A stretch of DNA of 64,000 nt from Bacteroidaceae bacterium. GTDB taxonomy: Bacteria > Bacteroidota > Bacteroidia > Bacteroidales > Bacteroidaceae. Positions 51,273 to 63,164 of the stretch are shown here, one piece after another. The notes beneath the pieces are model-generated. The model saw only the letters and a list, made by a program, of their open reading frames with translations. It made no database searches and was not told the origin of the DNA. Numbering within the stretch: the stretch's first letter is position 1; every line of letters starts with the position of its first letter. The stretch is taken from NCBI GenBank assembly GCA_017548075.1, contig JAFYNL010000017.1:37277-101276 (forward strand), read 5' to 3'. Position numbers and translations under genes: made by a program.

Positions 51273-52787
51273 ATGGACGAATTAAAGAATCTTCATAATC
51301 CCGAGACGAACGACACCTCATACGACCATGTGCTGAAGTACACGGGCATCTTTGGTGGTGTGCAGGGCTTGAAGATGCTTGTCAGTGTGGTGCGAGAGAA
51401 GCTTACTGCTCTTCTTCTCGGTGGTTGGGGAATAGGACTGATTACGGCTTACAACTCAGTCTATGAGTTCCTCAACAATGCCAGCAATATGGGTATTCCC
51501 TTGAATGCGACGCGAAAGACTGGTGAGCTTTTCGAGAACGGCACAGAGGAAGAGATTAAGCATCAGGTAATGGTGATTCGCACTTGGGTGCTTTGGTCGG
51601 CACTTCTTTCTGTGTTCATCTGCCTCTTCTTCTCGCCTATCATCAGTTATTTCTACTTCAACCACGATTGGCATCGCTGGCCTGTAGTCATGCTTACTTC
51701 GCTTGTGGCTGTGAGCAACATCATCGCTGAAGGCGAGTGTGCCATTCTGAAGGGTTTGCGACAAGTAAGAAAGGTGGCGATTATCGAGACGATTCTGGCC
51801 CTCGGAACATTGCTTTGCACCATTCCGATGTACTACCTGCTGGGCATTCGAGGCGTTATTGTGGGACTCATTGCTTGCGGTTTTCTGTCGGCAATAGTGC
51901 ACTTCTCTTTCTCGCTTCGTTTGGTTTCGTATAAGGTGAAACCCCTTTCGCAAAGGACTTTCTGCGAGGGCTTGCCGCTCATTAAGGTGGGCATTCCTTA
52001 TGTGCTTGCAGGTGTGGCCAATTCCTTCCTGCCGATGGTTATTGTTGCCATCATTCTTGCCAGTCACTCGGAAGCCGAATTGGGCCATTATAGTGCAGGA
52101 TGGAAGCTGATGGTCGGCTATTCAGGTCTCGTTTTCCTAGCTTTGGAGTCGGACTATTTCCCTCGTCTTTCTTCCGTCAACAACGACAAGCAGCGAATGA
52201 ACGACACCATCAATCAGCAAATCGACGTTTGTACGCTCATTCTTACGCCCTTGCTTGTATTGCTGGTTGTGTTCATGCCCTATGCTTTGAACATACTTTA
52301 CAAAGAGGAATTCTTGGTTGTAACGGGCATGGCCACGCTTTCCGTCTTCTATTCCTTCCTGCGTTGTATCGCTTTGCCCATGGGCTATAGCGTCCTTGCG
52401 AAAGGTCATAGCGTTGCATATCTGATTTTGGAGGTCTGCTACGATGTCTTCTTCGGACTGCTCATTTGGTGGTGCTACAACTCTTGGGGACTTGTTGGTG
52501 CAGGAATTGCCTTTTCTGTCGGAGCCCTCTACGATGTCATCGTCTATTTCCTCTACTGCCATTTCCGCTATGGATTTGCTTTCCGCAGAAGCACTTTGCT
52601 GTTCTGTCTCGGCCAGTTCGCCTGCCTTTTGGTAGCCGTAGAATACTGCTATCTGGTCAATCCCTCTATTGAAGAGCGATACATAGCTGGCGGTATTGCC
52701 TTTGCTGCGGCATCTGCCCTGAGCCTCTCCCGACTCATGCATCGCTCGAATTGCATGAAGTGCTTGATGCGAAAGCTCAGGAAATAA
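51273..52787 (+). CDS. Polysaccharide/O-antigen flippase (MOP superfamily)
   Basis: 504 residues with about 12-14 membrane helices and the Wzx-type opening TGIFGGVQGLKMLVSVVREKLTALLLG. The helix pattern YSAGWKLMVGYSGLVFLALESDYFPRLSSV (about 272-300) is characteristic of Bacteroidota O-antigen translocases. It would export lipid-linked oligosaccharide units. It is only distantly similar to the flippase at 10604-12046, so the two probably serve different polymers. The GH92 gene begins 32 bases downstream on the same strand. Confidence 0.86.
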   Translation: MDELKNLHNPETNDTSYDHVLKYTGIFGGVQGLKMLVSVVREKLTALLLGGWGIGLITAYNSVYEFLNNASNMGIPLNATRKTGELFENGTEEEIKHQVMVIRTWVLWSALLSVFICLFFSPIISYFYFNHDWHRWPVVMLTSLVAVSNIIAEGECAILKGLRQVRKVAIIETILALGTLLCTIPMYYLLGIRGVIVGLIACGFLSAIVHFSFSLRLVSYKVKPLSQRTFCEGLPLIKVGIPYVLAGVANSFLPMVIVAIILASHSEAELGHYSAGWKLMVGYSGLVFLALESDYFPRLSSVNNDKQRMNDTINQQIDVCTLILTPLLVLLVVFMPYALNILYKEEFLVVTGMATLSVFYSFLRCIALPMGYSVLAKGHSVAYLILEVCYDVFFGLLIWWCYNSWGLVGAGIAFSVGALYDVIVYFLYCHFRYGFAFRRSTLLFCLGQFACLLVAVEYCYLVNPSIEERYIAGGIAFAAASALSLSRLMHRSNCMKCLMRKLRK

Positions 52788-52819
52788 ATTCCAGAACCAT
52801 ATTAACCACCCTTATATCT

Positions 52820-55141
52820 ATGAAAAGAACTCTGTTCCTCGCAGCCTTTTCGGCTTGTTTTTTTACGTCGATGGCACAGCCCTCATACTCTCTAACCAAG
52901 TATGTAGAGCCCAGAATCGGTACAGCTCATTGTCGCGCTTTCCATTTCGCTCCAGGCTCTATGCCTTTTGGAATGGCGAAACCCGGCCCTTCCACCAACG
53001 GCTCTCTCGGTAATGCCGACGGCTGGCAAGCTACCGGCTACGACTATCGCGACACTTCCATCGAGGGTTTTGTCTGCACCCATGAGTTTCAAGTCGGTGG
53101 CATCTCTGTGATGCCCACCACAGGCCTCTTGCTCACCACTCCCGGACTTCCCGATGGCACAGGTCCTCGAGGCTATCGTTCCGCCTATTCTCATGATGAT
53201 GAGTACGCTACTGCAGGCTACTATCAAGTCATGCTCAACGACTACGACATCAATGCGGAAGTGACTGCTACTCAGCGCGTTGCTTTCCTTCGCTTCACCT
53301 ATCCTGAGACGCAAATGGCGCACCTCATCTTCGATATCGGTCATCAGCAAGGCGAGAGCGGCAAGGTGAAGGATGCGGAGGTCTGGGTGAACGAGGACGG
53401 AACGGCCGAAGGCTGGGTGATTACGCGCCCTGAATACATCAAGAAGTACCAGCCGAATGCCGACCAGCGCATCTATTTCTCTGCCGAAGTCGATACGAAA
53501 CCCGTTTGCGTTGGCGTGTTCAATGGCGATGATGTTCGCGACGACCAGACCTACACTCACGGCATCGGAGCTGGTGCTTATATGAACTTCCATACCAAAG
53601 ACAATCAGCAGATTACGGTCAAGGTTGGCATCAGTTATACTTCCGTCCAGAATGCCCGCATCAACCTCAAGGCAGAGGCCACAGGCGTCAGCTTCGACGA
53701 AGCCAAAAACGCCTCGCAGATGATTTGGCACGAGGCACTCAACCGCATTCAAGTGGAAGGCAAAAACGAGGAAGATTTAAAGAAATTCTATTCGGGTCTC
53801 TATCATGCTCTTCTCGGAAGAGGCGTGATGAGCGACGTGAATGGCGCGTATCCTAAGCACGACGGCACTATCGGGCAGGTTCCTATGGAGGGCGGAAAGC
53901 CGAAGTTCCAGATGTTCAACACCGATGCCATGTGGGGCGGACAATGGAATTTGACGCAGCTCTGGGCGTTGGCCTATCCAGAGCATCTCTCCGAGTTCAT
54001 TTCTTCAACGCTTCAGGAATACAAGGATTGCGGCTGGTTGGCCGACGGACTCGCCAACTCGAAGTATGTCTCCGGAGTGGGTACGAACCAGTTGCCCTTG
54101 ATGATTGATGCGGCCTATCAGTGCGGCATTCGCGACTTCGACCTCGACCTCGCTTATGAAGCCTGCCTGAAGAATGAAATGGACGGCAATCATCGGCCTG
54201 AAGGAGCGGGCAAGGACGATACCGCCGACTTCGTGGAGCTTGGCTATGCACCCCACAAGAACCTTGGCGAAAGGGGCGAAGACTTCTACTTCTCTGGCTC
54301 TCACACCCTCGAATATTCCTTCTCGGCCTATGCCACCGCAATGCTCGCCAAGAGCCTCGGCAAGATGGAGCATTTCGACAAACTGATGTGGATGTCGAAA
54401 GGTTGGGAACGCATCTTCGACGAGAAGACCGGATACATGCATCCACGCTTAAAAAACGGCGATTTCATCGAGAATTTCGACCCCATGCAAGTGTGGCGAG
54501 GCTTCCAGGAAGGCAATGCTGTGCAGTACACTTTCTATGTGCCTCACACCCCCGAAGAACTCATCAAGAAGGTAGGAAAAGACGAGTTCAACAAGCGCCT
54601 GAACGACATCTTCGTTGCCTCGCAGCCGCAAATCTTCTCGGGCGGCAAGGAGATAGATGCTTTCGCAGGCCTTCGCACCTACTACAATCAGGGCAATCAG
54701 CCTTGCCTGCACATCTCTTGGCTCTTCAATCACAGTGGGCGTCCGGACCTCTCGCAGAAGTGGGTTCGAGCCATTTGTGACGAGTTCTACGGCACCGACG
54801 GCATTCACGGCTACGGCTACGGACAGGACGAAGATCAGGGGCAACTGGGAGCCTGGTATGTGATGGCAGCCCTCGGACTCTTTGCAGTCGATGGTCTGAC
54901 CTCGCCCGAACCGAGTTTCTCCATTGGCAGCCCCATCTTCGACAAAGCCACCATCAAGCTTAACTCGCAGTATTACAAGGGGAAAGAGTTCGTCATCACC
55001 ACCAAAGGCAACGGCAAGCAAAACGTTTATGTAAAGCCCTCGAAGCGCATCAACGGCAAGCCGAGCAAGGCCGGCAGCATCAAGTTCAGCGATGTCGTCA
55101 AAGGCGGCTCAATAGAGCTGACAATGGGAAAGAAGCCGTAA
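52820..55141 (+). CDS. Secreted GH92 alpha-mannosidase (second copy)
   Basis: 773 residues from the ATG at 52820, which gives a clean signal peptide (MKRTLFLAAFSACFFTSMAQ). The upstream in-frame ATG overlaps the flippase gene. The family 92 fold has YVEPRIGTAHCRAFHFAPG, the acid region QEGNAVQYTFYVPH (about 570) and the base region GQDEDQGQLGAWYVMAALG (about 675). It differs clearly from the copy at 37151-39436, so the two enzymes probably cut different mannoside links. Its 3' end lies 21 bases from the 3' end of the convergent carbamoyl-phosphate synthase gene. Confidence 0.93.
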   Translation: MKRTLFLAAFSACFFTSMAQPSYSLTKYVEPRIGTAHCRAFHFAPGSMPFGMAKPGPSTNGSLGNADGWQATGYDYRDTSIEGFVCTHEFQVGGISVMPTTGLLLTTPGLPDGTGPRGYRSAYSHDDEYATAGYYQVMLNDYDINAEVTATQRVAFLRFTYPETQMAHLIFDIGHQQGESGKVKDAEVWVNEDGTAEGWVITRPEYIKKYQPNADQRIYFSAEVDTKPVCVGVFNGDDVRDDQTYTHGIGAGAYMNFHTKDNQQITVKVGISYTSVQNARINLKAEATGVSFDEAKNASQMIWHEALNRIQVEGKNEEDLKKFYSGLYHALLGRGVMSDVNGAYPKHDGTIGQVPMEGGKPKFQMFNTDAMWGGQWNLTQLWALAYPEHLSEFISSTLQEYKDCGWLADGLANSKYVSGVGTNQLPLMIDAAYQCGIRDFDLDLAYEACLKNEMDGNHRPEGAGKDDTADFVELGYAPHKNLGERGEDFYFSGSHTLEYSFSAYATAMLAKSLGKMEHFDKLMWMSKGWERIFDEKTGYMHPRLKNGDFIENFDPMQVWRGFQEGNAVQYTFYVPHTPEELIKKVGKDEFNKRLNDIFVASQPQIFSGGKEIDAFAGLRTYYNQGNQPCLHISWLFNHSGRPDLSQKWVRAICDEFYGTDGIHGYGYGQDEDQGQLGAWYVMAALGLFAVDGLTSPEPSFSIGSPIFDKATIKLNSQYYKGKEFVITTKGNGKQNVYVKPSKRINGKPSKAGSIKFSDVVKGGSIELTMGKKP

Positions 55142-55162
55142 AATGCGAGCTTCTTTGGCGAC

Positions 55163-58015
55163 TTAGAGATAGGAGAGATAGAGGTAGTTCGTTTGGGCAG
55201 GGTACTCAGCGGCGAGTGTATCGATTTGATGAACTGTAGGCTCGATGCCGAGCTCCTTACGCCACTTGCGAACAACTAGTCCAGCTTGCTCCATATTCAT
55301 GTCTGCTCCGAGACCAAGGGCGCGGGCTATCTGGAAGTCAGAAAAGCCATTAATCTTTGCCTCTCGCAGCAAGTCGAAGCACTCAGGCTCTTCGAGAAGT
55401 TCAAGTAACTCAGAGTAATCGGCATACTTAGAGTATTCCCTAATATAGCTGTGTTCACTCAATCGTTCGTTGATGTTGACAATGTGTTTGAGCTTTTGCA
55501 GGAACCAGTTGTCTATCTTTGTTAAGTTATGGATTTGCTCTTTCGAGTAGCCCATCATCATGGCCTTTGCTATGATGAAAATGCGCGTATCTGTAGCGTG
55601 TTGCAGGGCCTCGGGAACATTGGTAACGTGCTGAGCCTTGTTATCCACAAAGCCGTGCATTCCCTGACCAATCATGCGTAAGCCTTTCTGCATGGCTTCC
55701 TCGAAGGTGCGACCTATTGCCATCACCTCGCCCACACTCTTCATGCTGGAACCCAGTTCGTGGTTCACGCCATGGAACTTGGAGAGGTCCCAACGCGGAA
55801 TCTTGCAGACGACATAATCGAGAGCAGGTTCGAAGAAAGCGGAAGTGGTCTTGGTGACCGAGTTCTTTAGTTCGAAGAGACCATAGCCGAGACCAAGTTT
55901 TGCAGCGACAAAAGCGAGCGGATAACCCGTAGCCTTGCTGGCCAAAGCTGAAGAACGACTCAGTCTGGCGTTGACCTCAATAACTCTATAATCCTCGGAA
56001 TTGGGATCAAGAGCATATTGCACATTACACTCGCCAACGATGCCAATGTGACGTATTATCTTGATTGCTAAAGCACGAAGTTTATGGTACTCGCTATTGC
56101 TGAGTGTTTGGCTTGGAGCAACCACGATGCTTTCGCCTGTATGGATGCCAAGCGGATCGAAGTTCTCCATGTTGCAGACGGTAATGCAGTTGTCGAAGCG
56201 GTCGCGAACAACCTCGTATTCTATCTCTTTCCAGCCTCTCAACGATTTCTCGACAAGGACTTGCGACGAGAAAGAAAAGGCTTCTTCAGCTTGTGTCAGA
56301 AGTTCCTCATCATTATCGCAAAAGCCTGAGCCAAGTCCGCCAAGAGCATAAGCAGCTCGCAGAATCACAGGGAAGCCCAAATCGTGAGCGGCCTTCTGCA
56401 CTTCTTCTATCGTATTACAAGCCTCGCTCTTGATGGTCTTAACGTCGATTTCATCAAGTTTCTTTACGAAAAGTTCGCGGTCTTCAGTATCGATAATCGC
56501 CTGAATGGGAGTGCCGAGCACCTTTACACCATATTTCTCGAAAACACCTTTCTGGTAGAGTTCAACGCCACAGTTCAGAGCCGTTTGCCCGCCGAAACTG
56601 AGCAGAATGCCATCCGGCCTTTCTTTCTCGATGACGCGCTCAACAAAGTCGGGCGTAACAGGCTGGAAGTAAACCATATCTGCAACATCTTTCGAGGTCT
56701 GAACGGTAGCAATGTTGGGATTGATGAGTACGGTCTTGACGCCCTCTTCTTTTAAAGCTTTCAAAGCTTGAGCACCACTATAGTCGAACTCGCCAGCCTG
56801 ACCTATCTTTAATGCTCCGCTACCCAAAAGCAAAACTTTAGAAGCCTTCTGAACAACATTTCTCTCTTCTTTATATAGAGGAATAGGAGTCTGACCTTCA
56901 AGCGCCTTCACGAACTCATCGAACATCCACTCTGTATCGGTTGGACCTGAGCAAGCTTCTGGATGGAATTGTGCCGAGAACCAAGGGTTTGTCTTGTGAC
57001 GAATGCCTTCATTCGAGCCATCGTTCATGTTCACGAAAAGCGGTTCCCAATCCGAAGGCAAAGTGCTATCGTCCACAGCATAGCCATGATTCTGCGAAGT
57101 AATGAAGCACTTATTTGTCCCCACTTGCCTTACCGGTTGATTGTGGCTGCGATGACCATATTTCAATTTATAAGTCTTGCCTCCAGCCGCTTTTGCAAGC
57201 AACTGATTCCCCAGACAAATTCCCATAAGCGGACGCACCTTTTTATTATTTAGGAAGGTACGGATATGCTCTACAGTCTTGACACATTGCTCAGGGTCGC
57301 CAGGTCCATTCGCCAAGAAAAGTCCGTCAAATTCGAGTTGATTGAAGTCATAGTCCCAAGGCACGCGAATCACCTCTACTCCTCTGCGCAACAAACAGCG
57401 AATGATATTGGCTTTCACGCCACAATCCACAAGCACTACGCGCTTGAGTGAAGAGTGTAGAGTGAAGAGTGAAGAATTTGCTGCCGCTGTAGAATCAGGC
57501 TTATATGTTATCACTTCCTTGCAACTAACCTTCTCTACCCAATTGATAGAGCCATAATCTTCCGAGCAATGTTCAATATTCAATGAAGAATGTTCAATGA
57601 TAATCTTTCCCATCATGACTCCTTGTTCCCTAAGAACCTGAGTCAAGCGACGAGTATTGATGCCTGTAATGCCTGGAATCTTTTCGCGTTTCAGCCACTC
57701 AGCCAACGATTCCTTTGCATTCCAATGACAGTATTCCTCGCTATAATCCGCCACAATGATGGCCTTTGGATGAATCTGGTCGCTTTCCATAAAACGAGGA
57801 AGAGGTTCGCCTCCAGTATCGGGAACCCCATAATTCCCAATCAACGGATAAGTAAAAGTCAGTATTTGTCCTGCATAACTCGGGTCGGTCAAACTTTCCG
57901 GGTAACCCGTCATAGCAGTATTGAACACCACTTCCCCCTCGACTTCTGCTTCATAGCCGAAACTCTTACCACAGAAGACCGTTCCATCACTCAATATCAA
58001 TTGCGCATCTTTCAT
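55163..58015 (-). CDS. Carbamoyl-phosphate synthase: glutaminase subunit fused to the first half of the synthetase subunit
   Basis: 950 residues from the ATG at 58015 (a GTG 12 bases upstream is possible). Residues 1 to about 395 are CarA, with the glutaminase cysteine C267 in GICLGNQLL and the histidine/glutamate in QFHPEAC. From about 395 (KASKVLLLGSGALKIGQAG) to the end is the N-terminal half of CarB: pre-ATP-grasp, first ATP-grasp domain (EVNARLSRSSALASKATGYPLA) and oligomerisation domain. It stops after TLAAEYPAQTNYLYLSYL, where CarB normally continues for about 500 residues. The second ATP-grasp and regulatory domains are missing. CarA has in-frame repeat-derived inserts at about 138-149 and 180-191. 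It follows asnB. Confidence 0.9.
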   Translation of the reverse strand: MKDAQLILSDGTVFCGKSFGYEAEVEGEVVFNTAMTGYPESLTDPSYAGQILTFTYPLIGNYGVPDTGGEPLPRFMESDQIHPKAIIVADYSEEYCHWNAKESLAEWLKREKIPGITGINTRRLTQVLREQGVMMGKIIIEHSSLNIEHCSEDYGSINWVEKVSCKEVITYKPDSTAAANSSLFTLHSSLKRVVLVDCGVKANIIRCLLRRGVEVIRVPWDYDFNQLEFDGLFLANGPGDPEQCVKTVEHIRTFLNNKKVRPLMGICLGNQLLAKAAGGKTYKLKYGHRSHNQPVRQVGTNKCFITSQNHGYAVDDSTLPSDWEPLFVNMNDGSNEGIRHKTNPWFSAQFHPEACSGPTDTEWMFDEFVKALEGQTPIPLYKEERNVVQKASKVLLLGSGALKIGQAGEFDYSGAQALKALKEEGVKTVLINPNIATVQTSKDVADMVYFQPVTPDFVERVIEKERPDGILLSFGGQTALNCGVELYQKGVFEKYGVKVLGTPIQAIIDTEDRELFVKKLDEIDVKTIKSEACNTIEEVQKAAHDLGFPVILRAAYALGGLGSGFCDNDEELLTQAEEAFSFSSQVLVEKSLRGWKEIEYEVVRDRFDNCITVCNMENFDPLGIHTGESIVVAPSQTLSNSEYHKLRALAIKIIRHIGIVGECNVQYALDPNSEDYRVIEVNARLSRSSALASKATGYPLAFVAAKLGLGYGLFELKNSVTKTTSAFFEPALDYVVCKIPRWDLSKFHGVNHELGSSMKSVGEVMAIGRTFEEAMQKGLRMIGQGMHGFVDNKAQHVTNVPEALQHATDTRIFIIAKAMMMGYSKEQIHNLTKIDNWFLQKLKHIVNINERLSEHSYIREYSKYADYSELLELLEEPECFDLLREAKINGFSDFQIARALGLGADMNMEQAGLVVRKWRKELGIEPTVHQIDTLAAEYPAQTNYLYLSYL

Positions 58016-58085
58016 CCTATTTTTCACTCTTCACTTTTAATATGCTTGTTCGTGTACTCCTTTTACGAAACTAATGGGTGTTCCG

Positions 58086-59777
58086 TTAGTACGCCATTTC
58101 ATGTACTCCCTTAACGGCTCGACCGCTTGGGTCGTTCATGTTCTTGAAAGCCGCATCCCATTCAAGAGCGATGGCTGTAGAGCAAGCCACACTGGCCTCG
58201 CTGGGAACACTTAAAGCCGCGGAGTCGCTTGGGAAATGCTCTGCGAAAATGCTGCGGTAGTAGTACTCTTCCTTATTCTTCGGCGGATTGATGGGGAATC
58301 GCTCTGCCGCATGAGCCATTTGTTCGTCGCTGACAGCTTGGGAGGTAATCTCCTTCAAAGTGTCAATCCACGAATAACCCACACCATCGCTGAACTGCTC
58401 TTTCTGCCTCCAAGCCACAGCCTCGGGCAGCATATCGGCAAAGGCTTCGCGCACAATCCTCTTCTCAATTGTCTGGCCTGGACACATCTTTGCTTCGGGA
58501 TTTGTCCGCATTGCCACATCGAGGAATTCTTTGTCGAGGAACGGCACACGACCTTCAACGCCCCAAGCCGAAAGGCTCTTGTTGGCACGAAGACAATCGT
58601 AGAGATAAAGTTTGCCGAGCTTGCGGACCGTCTCTTCGTGGAAAGCCTTTGCGTTGGGAGCTTTGTGGAAGTAGAGATAACCGCCAAAAATTTCGTCAGC
58701 ACCTTCGCCACTGAGCACCATCTTGATGCCCATCGACTTGATGACGCGAGCCAAAAGATACATTGGCGTAGAGGCTCGAACGGTTGTCACATCGTAGGTC
58801 TCGATGAAATAAATCACATCTCGAATGGCGTCAAGTCCTTCCTGAATCGTATAGTTGATTTCGTGATGAACGGTTCCGATGTGCTCAGCCACGAGTCGCG
58901 CTTTCTCTAAATCTGGAGCGCCTTTCAGTCCTACTGCAAAAGAGTGGAGTCGCGGCCAATAGGCACGAGTCTGCGAGTTGTCCTCGATTCTGTGCTCACT
59001 GAACTTCTCCGCAATGGCAGAAACGACACTCGAATCCAAACCGCCAGAAAGAAGTACTCCATAAGGCACATCGCTCATCAATTGTCGTTTTACTGCCGCC
59101 GTCAAAGAAGTGCGAATATCCTCAACCGATGCAGGATTATCCTTCACAGCATCGTACTCGAACCAATCTCGCTGATAATAGCGTTTTAATGGTAACTTAT
59201 ATTCTTCACTCTTCACTCTTAACTCTTCACTCCAAAGATAATGTCCTGGCAGGAAAGGCTCATACCTTTCGCACTGCCCTTCGAGCGCCTTCAGTTCCGA
59301 AGCCACATAGACCTTCCCATCGTTATCATAACCAATATAAAGAGGTATCACGCCAATTGGGTCGCGAGCAATCAGGAACGCATCCTTCTCCTCATCATAA
59401 AGGACAAAGGCGAAAATGCCCGAAATATCCTCCAAGAAATCGACGCCCTTGTCGCGATAAAGTGCCAGAATCACTTCGCAATCGCTTCCTGTCTGAAAAT
59501 CGTATTTCCCAGCATATTGGCGACGTATTTCCTGATGATTATAGATTTCGCCATTCACAGCCAAAACCTGTTTGCGGTCTGGCGAGAAAAGCGGCTGCCC
59601 ACCACTTTCGGGGTCAACGATACTGAGACGTTCGTGAGCAAGAATAGCCGAGCCTCCGCAATATATTCCGCTCCAATCGAGACCACGATGACGAATCTTA
59701 TGACTCATCTGCAAAGCCTTTTGTCGCAGTTCTGGAGTCTGCTGCTTTATCTTTAGAATTGAAACTATTCCACACAT
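58086..59777 (-). CDS. asnB: Asparagine synthase (glutamine-hydrolysing)
   Basis: 563 residues. C2 (MCGIVSI) is the glutaminase nucleophile, with NGEIYNH and GSDCEVIL in the N-terminal domain. The synthetase domain has the pyrophosphate loop SGGLDSS (244-250) and LSGEGADEIFGGYLYF. It makes asparagine from aspartate, ATP and glutamine. Residues about 182-194 (WSEELRVKSEEYK) are an extra loop encoded by a TTCACTCTTCACTC-type interspersed repeat; the flanking sequence (LPGHY, then LPLKRYY) is standard. It lies 13 bases after pyrG and 70 bases before the car fusion gene. Confidence 0.94.
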   Translation of the reverse strand: MCGIVSILKIKQQTPELRQKALQMSHKIRHRGLDWSGIYCGGSAILAHERLSIVDPESGGQPLFSPDRKQVLAVNGEIYNHQEIRRQYAGKYDFQTGSDCEVILALYRDKGVDFLEDISGIFAFVLYDEEKDAFLIARDPIGVIPLYIGYDNDGKVYVASELKALEGQCERYEPFLPGHYLWSEELRVKSEEYKLPLKRYYQRDWFEYDAVKDNPASVEDIRTSLTAAVKRQLMSDVPYGVLLSGGLDSSVVSAIAEKFSEHRIEDNSQTRAYWPRLHSFAVGLKGAPDLEKARLVAEHIGTVHHEINYTIQEGLDAIRDVIYFIETYDVTTVRASTPMYLLARVIKSMGIKMVLSGEGADEIFGGYLYFHKAPNAKAFHEETVRKLGKLYLYDCLRANKSLSAWGVEGRVPFLDKEFLDVAMRTNPEAKMCPGQTIEKRIVREAFADMLPEAVAWRQKEQFSDGVGYSWIDTLKEITSQAVSDEQMAHAAERFPINPPKNKEEYYYRSIFAEHFPSDSAALSVPSEASVACSTAIALEWDAAFKNMNDPSGRAVKGVHEMAY

Positions 59778-59790
59778 AATATGCTGATTT

Positions 59791-61389
59791 TTAGTTTATA
59801 CAAGCCTTAATGAAACTCATGAAGAGAGGATGCGGATTTAGTACCGTCGAACTGTATTCTGGATGAAACTGTGTTCCTATGTACCACTTCTTCTCTGGAA
59901 TCTCTACTATCTCTACCAGATTTGCCTTCGGATTGATACCCACGCACTTCATGCCAGCCTTTTCGTATTCCTCTTTATATTGGTTATTGAATTCGTAGCG
60001 ATGCCTGTGGCGTTCGCTGATAAGTTCCTTTTCGCTATATGCCTCATAAACGCGACTCCCTTCGCGCAACTCACATTCGTAGGCTCCCAGTCGCATTGTA
60101 CCACCCATTTGGGTGATGCTCTTTTGCTCCTCCATGATGTCGATAACGTTGTGAGGTGTATCTGGATTCATTTCTGCACTATTGGCATCCTTGTAACCCA
60201 GTACATTGCGGGCAAACTCTATGACCATCATCTGCATGCCCAGACAAATACCGAAAGTTGGAATATCGTGGGTTCGAGTGTATTCTGCAGCGATGATTTT
60301 GCCTTCGATGCCACGCTGACCGAAGCCCGGACAAACCACAATTCCCTGCAGGCCCTCAAGCTTCTCGGCCACATTCTCCTTGGTAATCTCCTCGCTGTTC
60401 ACAAAGTGCAATTTTGCTTTCACATCATTATAGATGCTAGCCAGATTCAGACTCTCGCGGATGCTTTTGTAGGCATCTTGGAGGTCGTACTTGCCAACCA
60501 AACCGATATGTACCTCATGAGTTGCATTGCGCTGTTTTTCAAGGAAATCGCGCCAAGCCTTCATGGCGGGTGTCTCGCCTACGGGAATGCCAATCTTGCG
60601 CATGATGGCTGCATCCAATCCTTGATGTTGCATGTTAACGGGCACCTCGTAGATGCTGGGCATATCTTCGCTCTGAACCACGCATTCAAGGTCCACATTA
60701 CAGAAAGAAGCCACCTTCATACGCATGCTATCGTCGAGGTGGCGTTCGGTACGAAGTACCAAAATGTCGGGCTGGATGCCCATTCCTTGCAATTCCTTAA
60801 CACTATGTTGCGTGGGTTTGGTTTTCAGTTCGTCCGCCGCCTTCAAATAAGGAACATAGGTCAGGTGTACGCAGACAGCGCTCCTGCCCAACTGCCATCT
60901 TAGCTGTCGGATAGCTTCCATAAAAGGTGCACTCTCTATGTCGCCAATTGTGCCTCCCACCTCGGTTATGACGAAGTCCCAGTCCTCGCCCTGCTCGTCT
61001 TCGCGGAGCATCCTCCTTTTAATCTCGTCCGTGATATGAGGCACAACCTGAATGGTCTTGCCCAGATAGTCGCCATGACGCTCTCGATCTATTACCGTTT
61101 TATATATGCGTCCCGTAGTGATGCTATTGTTGCGAGTGGTATGAATTCCCGTAAAGCGTTCGTAGTGTCCGAGGTCGAGGTCCGTCTCGAAACCGTCTTC
61201 TGTCACATAGCATTCGCCATGTTCGTAGGGATTGAGCGTGCCTGGATCGATGTTGATATAGGGGTCGAACTTCTGAATCGTGACCTTGTAGCCGCGAGCC
61301 TGGAGCAACTTGCCTATGCTGGCAGAAATGATTCCCTTGCCAAGAGAAGAGACTACGCCGCCTGTAACAAAGATATAGTTGGTCTTCAT
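59791..61389 (-). CDS. pyrG: CTP synthase
   Basis: 532 residues from the ATG at 61389 (MKTNYIFVTGGVVSSLGKG). Another ATG at 61401 overlaps the purF stop (TAATG) and could serve by re-initiation. The synthetase domain keeps the GVVSSLGKGI P-loop and EVGGTIGDIES. The glutaminase domain has its cysteine in FGICLGMQM and the histidine/glutamate in QFHPEYSS. It converts UTP to CTP using glutamine nitrogen. All regions look normal. It lies between purF and asnB in the amidotransferase cluster. Confidence 0.96.
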   Translation of the reverse strand: MKTNYIFVTGGVVSSLGKGIISASIGKLLQARGYKVTIQKFDPYINIDPGTLNPYEHGECYVTEDGFETDLDLGHYERFTGIHTTRNNSITTGRIYKTVIDRERHGDYLGKTIQVVPHITDEIKRRMLREDEQGEDWDFVITEVGGTIGDIESAPFMEAIRQLRWQLGRSAVCVHLTYVPYLKAADELKTKPTQHSVKELQGMGIQPDILVLRTERHLDDSMRMKVASFCNVDLECVVQSEDMPSIYEVPVNMQHQGLDAAIMRKIGIPVGETPAMKAWRDFLEKQRNATHEVHIGLVGKYDLQDAYKSIRESLNLASIYNDVKAKLHFVNSEEITKENVAEKLEGLQGIVVCPGFGQRGIEGKIIAAEYTRTHDIPTFGICLGMQMMVIEFARNVLGYKDANSAEMNPDTPHNVIDIMEEQKSITQMGGTMRLGAYECELREGSRVYEAYSEKELISERHRHRYEFNNQYKEEYEKAGMKCVGINPKANLVEIVEIPEKKWYIGTQFHPEYSSTVLNPHPLFMSFIKACIN

Positions 61390-61400
61390 ACTTTCTCTCA

Positions 61401-63164
61401 TTATTTCGTTATACCGTTGTGATGATTCTCATACCAATTGACAAAAGCCTCATTTACGCGACGAATGCCGCCAGGAGTTGGGTAGTCGCCCGTAAAGTAC
61501 CAGTCGCCATGATGATTCGGAATGGCTGTGTGGAGGCCTTCTATGCTTTGGAAGACCAGTTCTATCGGCGCTTCCATCCCTTGAGGCCGCATCATCTCGA
61601 CCATCTTCTCGTTAATCTCCTCAACCGAGAACGGCCTGTAAATGGCCTGAACAAAGTTCCCCTCGCCTTTTGGAGAGGGGTTAGGGGTGAGGCTATTCTT
61701 ACAAGCCTCGTAAGTGTCTGTAATAACCTGCCACATTCCCCTTTCTTCCAGCAGAGCAATGGCAGCTCGGAAAGCACAGAGCTCCTCCAGCCGGGCCATA
61801 TCTATGCCGTAGAAGTCGGGATAGCGAACCTGCGGCGAGCTGCTCACCATCACTATCTTTTTGGGGTGCAGGCGGTCGAGAATCTTGAAGATGCTCTCCT
61901 TCAAAGTCGTGCCGCGAACTATTGAGTCGTCTATGATGACGAGGTTGTCCTTGTAGGGTTCCAGACAGCCGTAAGTGATGTCGTAGACGTGAGCCGCGAG
62001 GTCGTTTCTGGCACCGGCTTCCGTGATGAAAGTCCGCAGCTTGATGTCCTTCCACGCCACCTTTTCCGTCCGCACATCCAGCCCTTGCCTGCGAAAGCCT
62101 TCCACCATGCCGTAGAAAGCCACCTCGGCCGTGTTGGGGATGAACGAGAAGACCGTGTGCTCCGTATCGTCTTCTACTGCCCGAAGGATGGGAGCCGTCA
62201 GTTGCTCGCCCAGTCGTTTGCGTTCCTGATAAATCTCGCAATCCGAACCGCGACTGAAATAGATGCGCTCGAAACTGCACTGGTAATCGCCCTTCTGAGG
62301 CATGATGATGTCCGTCTTCGCTTCCCCGTGACTGCTCACAATAAGAGCCTGACCTGGAGCAATCTCTTGAATCTGGTCGGCAGAGAGGTCGAAAGTGGTC
62401 TGCAGCACTGGCCGTTCGCTTGCAACCGCCACAACCTCATCGTCCTGATAGTAGAAAGCAGGTCGGATGCCCCAAGGATCGCGGACTGCAAACATCTCGC
62501 CGCTGCCCGTCAGACCGCAAAGCACATAGCCTCCGTCGTAGTCTGGGAGGGCACTTCGCAGCACTCGGCTTATATCCACATGGTCGTCAATGTAATGCGT
62601 CACATCGAGGTCCTGAAGTCCTATTCGCTTCGCCGCATTGAAGTTGCGCTCCACCTCTCTGTCGAGCCTGTGCCCCATCCATTCCAGCGTGATGTAACTG
62701 TCGCCGAACATGCGAGGTGACTGGCCTTGCTGGACGATTTTCTCGAAGATTTCGTCGATGTTCGTCATGTTGAAGTTGCCGCAAAGACAGAGGTTCTTGG
62801 CTCGCCAATTGTTGCGACGCAGGAAGGGATGAATGTATTGCAGACCGCTCTTGCCCGTCGTCGAGTAGCGCAAATGTCCCATGAAGAGCGAAGCCTCCTC
62901 CCAGCCCTGAACATGATTGAAAATCTCCGTAATCGCCTCTTTCCCCTCAGCCCTCTCGCGGAACATATACTCCTCACCAACGGGAGCCTTCATGTTGACG
63001 CAAGCAATGCCAGCGCCTTCCTGACCGCGATTGTGCTGCTTCTCCATCATGAGGTACAGCTTGTTCAGAGCATAGTGCTTAGTGCCATATTTCTGCTGAT
63101 AATACGACACAGGTCTTAGCAGGCGAATCATCGCCACACCACATTCATGTTTCAGCTCTTCCAT
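61401..63164 (-). CDS. purF: Amidophosphoribosyltransferase (PurF-like, long form)
   Basis: 587 residues. The class II glutaminase nucleophile is C8 (KHECGVAM), so a seven-residue propeptide must be removed, as in Bacillus-type PurF. The glutaminase has HNRGQEGAG and GHLRYSTTGKSG. The phosphoribosyltransferase has the PRPP loop VIIDDSIVRGTT. It makes phosphoribosylamine, the first step of purine synthesis. A C-terminal extension (about 480-587) is longer than in short PurF and holds, at about 490-504, the repeat-encoded insert SLTPNPSPKGEG. It is the first gene of the cluster, with a TAACTTTG box about 50 bases upstream. A second, short PurF elsewhere in the genome is possible. Confidence 0.88.
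   Translation of the reverse strand: MEELKHECGVAMIRLLRPVSYYQQKYGTKHYALNKLYLMMEKQHNRGQEGAGIACVNMKAPVGEEYMFRERAEGKEAITEIFNHVQGWEEASLFMGHLRYSTTGKSGLQYIHPFLRRNNWRAKNLCLCGNFNMTNIDEIFEKIVQQGQSPRMFGDSYITLEWMGHRLDREVERNFNAAKRIGLQDLDVTHYIDDHVDISRVLRSALPDYDGGYVLCGLTGSGEMFAVRDPWGIRPAFYYQDDEVVAVASERPVLQTTFDLSADQIQEIAPGQALIVSSHGEAKTDIIMPQKGDYQCSFERIYFSRGSDCEIYQERKRLGEQLTAPILRAVEDDTEHTVFSFIPNTAEVAFYGMVEGFRRQGLDVRTEKVAWKDIKLRTFITEAGARNDLAAHVYDITYGCLEPYKDNLVIIDDSIVRGTTLKESIFKILDRLHPKKIVMVSSSPQVRYPDFYGIDMARLEELCAFRAAIALLEERGMWQVITDTYEACKNSLTPNPSPKGEGNFVQAIYRPFSVEEINEKMVEMMRPQGMEAPIELVFQSIEGLHTAIPNHHGDWYFTGDYPTPGGIRRVNEAFVNWYENHHNGITK

Follow-up and report, generated by a model that had tools for sequence, protein, structure and literature searches.

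A conserved fusion of CarA with half of CarB in uncultured Bacteroidales, a candidate half-size glutamine-dependent carbamoyl phosphate synthetase

Introduction

The question raised by this locus is whether a carbamoyl phosphate synthetase (CPS) that lacks the second half of its large subunit can be a working enzyme. The locus lies in what we call the window, the whole stretch of 64,000 nucleotides that was analyzed (G000:C8:37277–101276). Its source genome, G000, is a Bacteroidaceae draft assembly of 2.66 Mb in 66 contigs and is 88% complete. A first-pass annotation, made from the letters of the window, had described a gene fusion of carA with the first half of carB and had offered three readings: a compact homodimeric enzyme, a split enzyme whose other half is encoded at a different site, or a decaying gene. 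Here we call the fusion and its relatives the half form, the CarB of the full CarA-CarB enzymes CarB1, and the separate full-length paralogue CarB2.

Results

The fusion occupies 55163..58015 on the reverse strand, stop included, and is one open frame encoding an intact protein of 950 aa with its ATG at 58015; an alternative GTG start at 58027 would add 4 aa. On that strand Pfam placed the CarA small-chain domain (CPSase_sm_chain, PF00988, aa 6–138, 57602..58000), a class I GATase glutaminase domain (aa 194–370, 56906..57436), the L1 pre-ATP-grasp domain of CarB, which alignment showed to include the tunnel-loop (CPSase_L_D1, aa 391–507, 56495..56845), the L1 ATP-grasp domain, whose ligand residues were checked and equal those of full CarB1 (CPSase_L_D2, aa 512–714, 55874..56482), and the Pfam part of the L2 oligomerization domain (CPSase_L_D3, aa 802–899, 55319..55612). 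The Pfam search found neither a second ATP-grasp nor an MGS domain in the 950-aa protein. The whole protein aligns with positions 45–962 of the 1500 of human CPS1, and its CarB part with 9–547 of the 1073 of E. coli CarB. The model for the CPS small subunit (TIGR01368) scored 449.5 bits against a cut-off of 307, with the triad intact, whereas that for the large subunit (TIGR01369) reached 857 of the 1027 bits needed and matched over model positions 4–542 of 1052 only. Because the fusion passed NF003671 (728 against a cut-off of 599), automatic annotation would probably name it CarB.

A GH92 glycosidase gene on the forward strand, a convergent neighbor outside the system (52751..55141; Pfam), ends 21 bases (55142..55162) from the half-carB stop, which leaves no space for a second half. 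On the contig that stop falls at about C8:92440, which leaves about 92 kb of contig sequence past the half gene. The frame running from CarA through the L1 ATP-grasp and L2, the absence of the carbamate-kinase half and the allosteric domain, and the 21-base gap with no room left had all been claimed in the first-pass annotation, and each was confirmed. The same 7-base repeat (GAGTGAA / TCTTCAC, 4.3 copies) occurs within carA (57446–57475) and within asnB (59203–59232). Linker inserts of the PSPxGEG kind were seen in 13 of 69 half-form proteins.

Residues C267, H351 and E353, which we take to be the catalytic triad of the glutaminase, were invariant among 33 aligned half-fusions. We compared 63 halves with 82 full CarB1 sequences at 34 CarB positions that we assume to be ligand sites; the commonest residue was the same at 33 of them, and 32 were invariant among the halves. 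The ammonia gate (C232, A251, A314) was kept in 63/63 halves. The earlier remark that the conserved motifs look intact was thus borne out. The sole ligand-site exception was E. coli position 22, which is Q in all 63 halves of the first set and in CarB2, and E in 82/82 full CarB1. By alignment Q406 of the fusion (nt 56798–56800) is Q437 of human CPS1, beside G436 at the tip of the tunnel-loop. Q22 did not hold as a universal mark of the half form: of 20 further genomes with data at this position 17 have Q, but G312, G207 and G204 have E.

The remaining half-specific positions were few (E. coli 31, 67, 130, 155, 191, 194, 372, 516 and 546). The L2 segment was mostly 30 residues long in halves versus mostly 17 in full CarB1. 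This 13-residue insertion (about aa 858–876 of the fusion, 55388..55444, reverse strand, by alignment) contains E869 and E872, both present in 63/63 halves; it was read in 22 of 23 further genomes, G204 having been missed by the search pattern. The idea that half-specific residues are copies of L3 was rejected, as the comparison showed no simple turn into L3 residues. In the structure of human CPS1 the tunnel-loop (430–443) is situated between L1, L3 and L4, and the T-loop, in which position 372 falls, is packed on L3 (PMC4655335). The tunnel-loop change, the L2 insertion and the other half-specific changes may serve a new interface.

A half-size CPS is carried by many uncultured rumen and gut Bacteroidales. 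In a census of the genus with the CarA part as query, CarA was found (E <= 1e-60) in 95 of 139 genomes. When the 3' ends were read and recounted, the half form was present in 55 of the 139; this count includes genomes with the gene in two frames (G123), unfused (G117) or starting at a contig edge (G035), and leaves out G152, in which the gene is cut by a contig end. The other CarA-bearing genomes of the genus have a full CarA-CarB1 fusion (open frames of 1449–1567 aa) or separate carA and carB1 genes. Relatives were compared for the same end point, as had been suggested, and it proved to be shared: all first-set halves end near ...AAEYPAxTNYLY[LMV][ST]Y (at about position 547 of E. coli CarB) with a variation of 0–3 residues, and 23 further genomes have the same end point.

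A match to the half-specific L2 region (E <= 1e-48) was seen in 47 of the 399 genomes of the family, spread over 7 of its 30 genera. At the order level 2 of 392 genomes matched it (E <= 1e-46), namely G000 itself and G607, a single genome of another family in which the half form is also present. Half-carB without fusion occurs in G509, G224, G241, G204, G426, G490, G117 and N075. Named half-form loci (L064–L076) make up 13 of the at least 80 named loci listed; their MAGs come from several studies, some with the RUG label, which presumably stands for rumen genomes, and among the loci listed the record titles mention goat, sheep and red deer. A search of a viral collection gave one partial relative, and a plasmid search gave 114 matching records, a count of matches and not of half forms. 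A second L2 match was seen on another contig in G126 (C77 and C82). In G112, which has the full fusion, locus L160 (G112:C93) holds an additional, partial CarA whose similarity is of the half type.

In FastTree the 63 halves formed one group (support 1.0, stem 0.15); left out of this set were seven named loci duplicating genomes already in it, contig-edge pieces and partial sequences including that of G123. With the family loci added (84 tips, G607 counted twice) the support of the half clade was 0.84, and in an IQ-TREE analysis of 32 halves, 32 full CarB1 and 8 CarB2 it was SH-aLRT 97.5 and UFBoot 91. The IQ-TREE sister group was mostly Prevotella full CarB1, the joint group having 100/100; the FastTree of 63 halves had N127 as a weak sister (0.74). 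The half clade mixes genera, and two half-form genes from different sub-clades occur in G009 (C77 and C104); both observations suggest that half genes have been transferred between genera and kept.

The halves are under purifying selection, with a median dN/dS of 0.086 (Nei-Gojobori, 402 pairs, dS 0.05–1.5). The value for full CarB1 was 0.128 (158 pairs, same dS range), but the greater divergence of these pairs prevents a direct comparison of the two medians. The relaxed selection and scattered ends of a pseudogene were not seen; the exceptions are the broken copies of G123 (two frames) and G394 (internal stop).

The gene order in the window is purF-like, pyrG, asnB and half, on one strand and with short gaps. 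The genes for a glutamine-dependent asparagine synthetase (asnB, 58086..59777) and a glutamine-hydrolyzing CTP synthase (pyrG, 59791..61401) lie upstream of the half gene in this run. The gene for a PurF-like amidophosphoribosyltransferase (61401..63164) scored 143.7 bits with TIGR01134, against a cut-off of 350, and so may be a distinct type of that enzyme kept beside carA; among the full CarB1 loci, 27 of 84 rows likewise show a purF-like gene on the upstream side. Upstream sequence of 5.8 kb or more was available for 11 half loci; all 11 had pyrG and purF-like genes there, and 10 had asnB within 2 kb on one side; N067 ends 61 bases past the gene. None of the three was present in the 5.2 kb upstream in G126. 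The neighborhood is one of glutamine-dependent anabolism and fits a glutamine-dependent CPS.

The missing half was sought elsewhere with the second half of CarB1 as query. Matches were found in 49 of 56 genus candidates (E <= 1e-55) and, beyond the genus, in 31 of the 33 genomes with a half form (at least 63% identity). All of them belonged to CarB2, being either its second half or a piece of it that was broken or lay at a contig edge; the genus pieces were compared with CarB2. A stand-alone CarB second half was found in none of these 89 half-form candidate genomes (56 genus, 33 outside), all draft assemblies, and the suggested split of the enzyme over two loci was not borne out. A split CPS of the Aquifex type, with a separate CPS.B gene, was rejected for the same reason. 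The genomes lacking a match to the CarB second half were, in the genus, G014, G017, G018, G029, G065, G123 and G152 (7/56; 73–85% complete) and, outside it, G204 (87% complete) and G405 (63%). Fragments of a CarB2 first half were present in G018 and G029. No remnant of a CarB1 second half (>45% identity over at least 40 aa) was detected in 97 sequences, comprising half-form loci, some of them overlapping, and the whole window; at least 500 nt of downstream sequence was available for 63 of 68 first-set half genes. Carbamate kinase was rejected as the source of the missing step: none scored above the cut-off in 30 genomes (weak sub-threshold matches in 19), a cut-off passed by only 2 of 14 controls. 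Carbamoyltransferases were present in 30/30 genomes, with two copies in 28. What remains is the content of a half-size enzyme of the GLN-CPS.A type, with CarA and L1-L2 only, L1 catalytic residues kept at 33 of 34 positions and, within assembly completeness, no free second half.

The only other CarB of G000 is CarB2, a protein of 1073 aa on contig C48 (L144:6668–9889) with no carA beside it, whose first half is 60% identical to the CarB of the half fusion. The search of the genome for another CarB, proposed in the first-pass annotation, thus yielded a full CarB and no stand-alone second half. A complete carA-carB pair elsewhere, together with decay of the present copy, had also been envisaged; the full CarB that exists is a paralogue without an adjacent CarA, and this copy has no signs of decay.

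We searched 199 family genomes for CarB2 (G000 and 198 of at least 90% completeness) and classed 194, leaving out G000 and four genomes without a match (G150, G218, G220, G893). CarB2 was called at a best E below 1e-260, a cut-off of our own choice, and the class of other genomes may hide a half (G173). CarB2 was present in 18/18 near-complete half-form genomes versus 102 of 176 others, 74 being without it (Fisher p 1.6e-4, kinship ignored). In every one of the 18 a single CarB second half was present, the one belonging to CarB2. The CarA loci of G218, G173, G220 and G267 showed no half without CarB2: in the stretch read, G218 has CarA and then a CarB that lacks the L2 insertion, whereas in G173 CarA stops near a contig end, ahead of any readable CarB. 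Loci L327 (G220) and L328 (G267), of genus g36, represent a third, more distant CarA-CarB type whose CarA is about 40–42% identical.

CarB2 occurred without a CarB1 second half in 28 genomes. In 26 of these, among them the single-contig G171 and G473, no CarA was detected at E <= 1e-15; the exceptions were G173, with CarA near a contig end, and G267, with the more distant CarA. In 46 CarB2 sequences the nine L1 catalytic positions checked were kept throughout. Of six L3 motifs, four were found in all 46, one in 44 and one, the loose pattern EVE.D, in 15. Gate position 232 was A or V in 46/46, whatever the background. We rejected the idea that CarB2 evolves differently beside halves, since CarB2 had no fixed difference at 18 positions whether beside a half, beside full CarB1 or alone. 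In G393 (L269:3598–8387) pyrB, pyrI and CarB2 form one run, which links CarB2 to pyrimidine synthesis. CarB2 is probably a bacterial CPS working on free ammonia.

Discussion

The reading that we prefer, and to which we give marginally better than even credence, is that the fusion is a functional half-size glutamine-dependent CPS (GLN-CPS.A) that acts in homodimeric form, with an ammonia-type CarB2 alongside. The retention of the glutaminase, gate and L1 residues argues for carbamate production. CarA would hydrolyze glutamine, the ammonia would pass the intact gate to L1, and L1 would make carboxyphosphate and then carbamate. Two halves may pair through L1/L2, replacing the lost L1/L3 pseudo-dimer, and in the pair the same kind of ATP-grasp domain could also phosphorylate carbamate; the L2 insertion and the tunnel-loop change would be adaptations to this pairing. 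The separate full-length CarB2 would cover an ammonia-driven, probably regulated supply. A review describes the two CarB halves as functionally equivalent (PMC6245113), and isolated A. aeolicus CPS.A and CPS.B are each reported to catalyze both ATP-dependent partial reactions (PMC6022934, PMC6245113). The compact homodimeric enzyme first suggested stands as the most likely reading, with the dimer, the activity and the division of labor with CarB2 predicted from sequence comparisons. We regard as an even call the fuller proposal of a true CarB-family CPS whose ancient internal duplication has been undone, in which one kind of ATP-grasp domain, paired as a homodimer and fused to its glutaminase, would carry out both phosphorylations, with a new L2 element taking the place of the lost half, and which would be spreading between genera with a cluster of glutamine amidotransferase genes.

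The strongest evidence against self-sufficiency is that a half without CarB2 was not seen in near-complete genomes. Since all 18 of these have CarB2 and 74 of the 176 others do not, the half may not be sufficient alone, and this constant presence is why we hold the homodimer at about one half. G204, in which no CarB2 was seen, and the transfer between genera point toward self-sufficiency. Also weighing against the preferred reading are the exceptions to the tunnel-loop change, half-specific residues that do not become those of L3 in any simple way, and the broken copies of G123 and G394. In the main rival explanation, which we take seriously without thinking it likely, the half serves as a glutaminase-carbamate module and binds to the orphan CarB2; CarB2 would phosphorylate the carbamate, and the mixed complex would be the working enzyme. 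Besides the association in the survey, docking would account for the finding that full CarB1 occurs without CarB2 whereas the half was not seen to do so in a near-complete genome, and for CarB2 being the owner of the sole CarB second half in each of the 18. However, CarB2 has its own L1 and L3, occurs without detectable CarA in the 26 genomes noted above, two of them single-contig, and shows no fixed difference at the 18 positions, and A or V at gate residue 232, whichever partner is present; moreover, no CarB2 second half was found in the less complete G204, G405 and seven genus candidates.

It is improbable that the half has ceased to be a CPS and supplies some other acceptor with carbamate or a different activated C1-N product. 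In favor of this explanation are the loss of the carbamate-kinase half and of the allosteric domain, and the likelihood that CarB2 already covers carbamoyl phosphate; but the identified neighbors are nucleotide and amino acid amidotransferases, and the half agrees with full CarB1 at 33 of the 34 ligand positions. Nor does a slowly decaying relic, tolerated since CarB2 took over, seem more than very faintly probable. A few half copies are broken, and of the 139 genus genomes 44 lack a CarA match at the census threshold while 126 have a CarB second half; yet the halves, found in dozens of species, make up a single clade and end at a fixed point, with a dN/dS near 0.09, intermixed genera and a clade-specific insertion with invariant residues. 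The decay suggested for this gene is thus not borne out for the lineage, whose catalytic residues are kept. Loss of the second half at a contig join is hardly credible: although G000 is a draft in many contigs, the same end recurs in RUG, RGIG, red deer and other assemblies from several studies and in the 99%-complete G393 on a 251-kb contig, which contradicts the earlier proviso that the half might have been lost in assembly.

The preferred reading, a half-size homodimeric CPS, appears to undo a very ancient gene duplication. A natural lineage that lost one CarB copy yet retained the enzyme under selection would make the idea of functional equivalence testable in a natural protein, and the half would offer a minimal CPS for work on the carbamate tunnel and channeling. 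Automatic annotation probably calls it full CarB and so conceals it. The orphan CarB2 without detectable CarA, including that of single-contig genomes, is a second testable point, probably an ammonia-using bacterial CPS. We found no report of a natural, conserved CarA-half-CarB among the open-licence papers listed, which does not prove that none exists.

The known systems closest to the half form are the full CarA-CarB1 enzymes of Prevotella and other Bacteroidales, fused or separate, which are its closest relatives in the trees; L1-L2 is about 73–78% identical in the nearest. They differ in having L3 and L4, in lacking the L2 insertion and in carrying E at E. coli position 22, where most halves have Q. 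The engineered GLN-CPS.A and isolated CPS halves of Guy and Evans, from 1996 and 1997, reportedly have the same domain content as the half and are active as dimers. Those constructs are laboratory truncations, whereas the half described here is a natural lineage with changes of its own and a predicted activity.

Engineered half CPSs and split CPSs are already known, and a natural small CPS has been claimed in Methanobrevibacter smithii but is disputed (PMC11915815). Aquifex aeolicus resembles the half form in having CPS.A on its own chain, as described in PMC6022934, but it has a separate CPS.B gene, of which none was found in the 89 half-form candidate genomes. The 41-kDa "smallest CPS" of M. 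smithii is a natural single ATP-grasp enzyme reported to be a dimer (PMC6022934); PMC11915815 argues that it is no CPS and that it in no case clusters with CarB. Unlike that enzyme, the half described here is a true CarB N-terminal half fused to a glutaminase. Human CPS1 likewise combines CarA-like and CarB parts in one chain, and its structures 5dot and 6uel were the best-scoring solved structures for the half fusion. It differs in that L3 and L4 are present and in that its glutaminase, as stated in PMC4655335, is inactive, with Ser in place of Cys.
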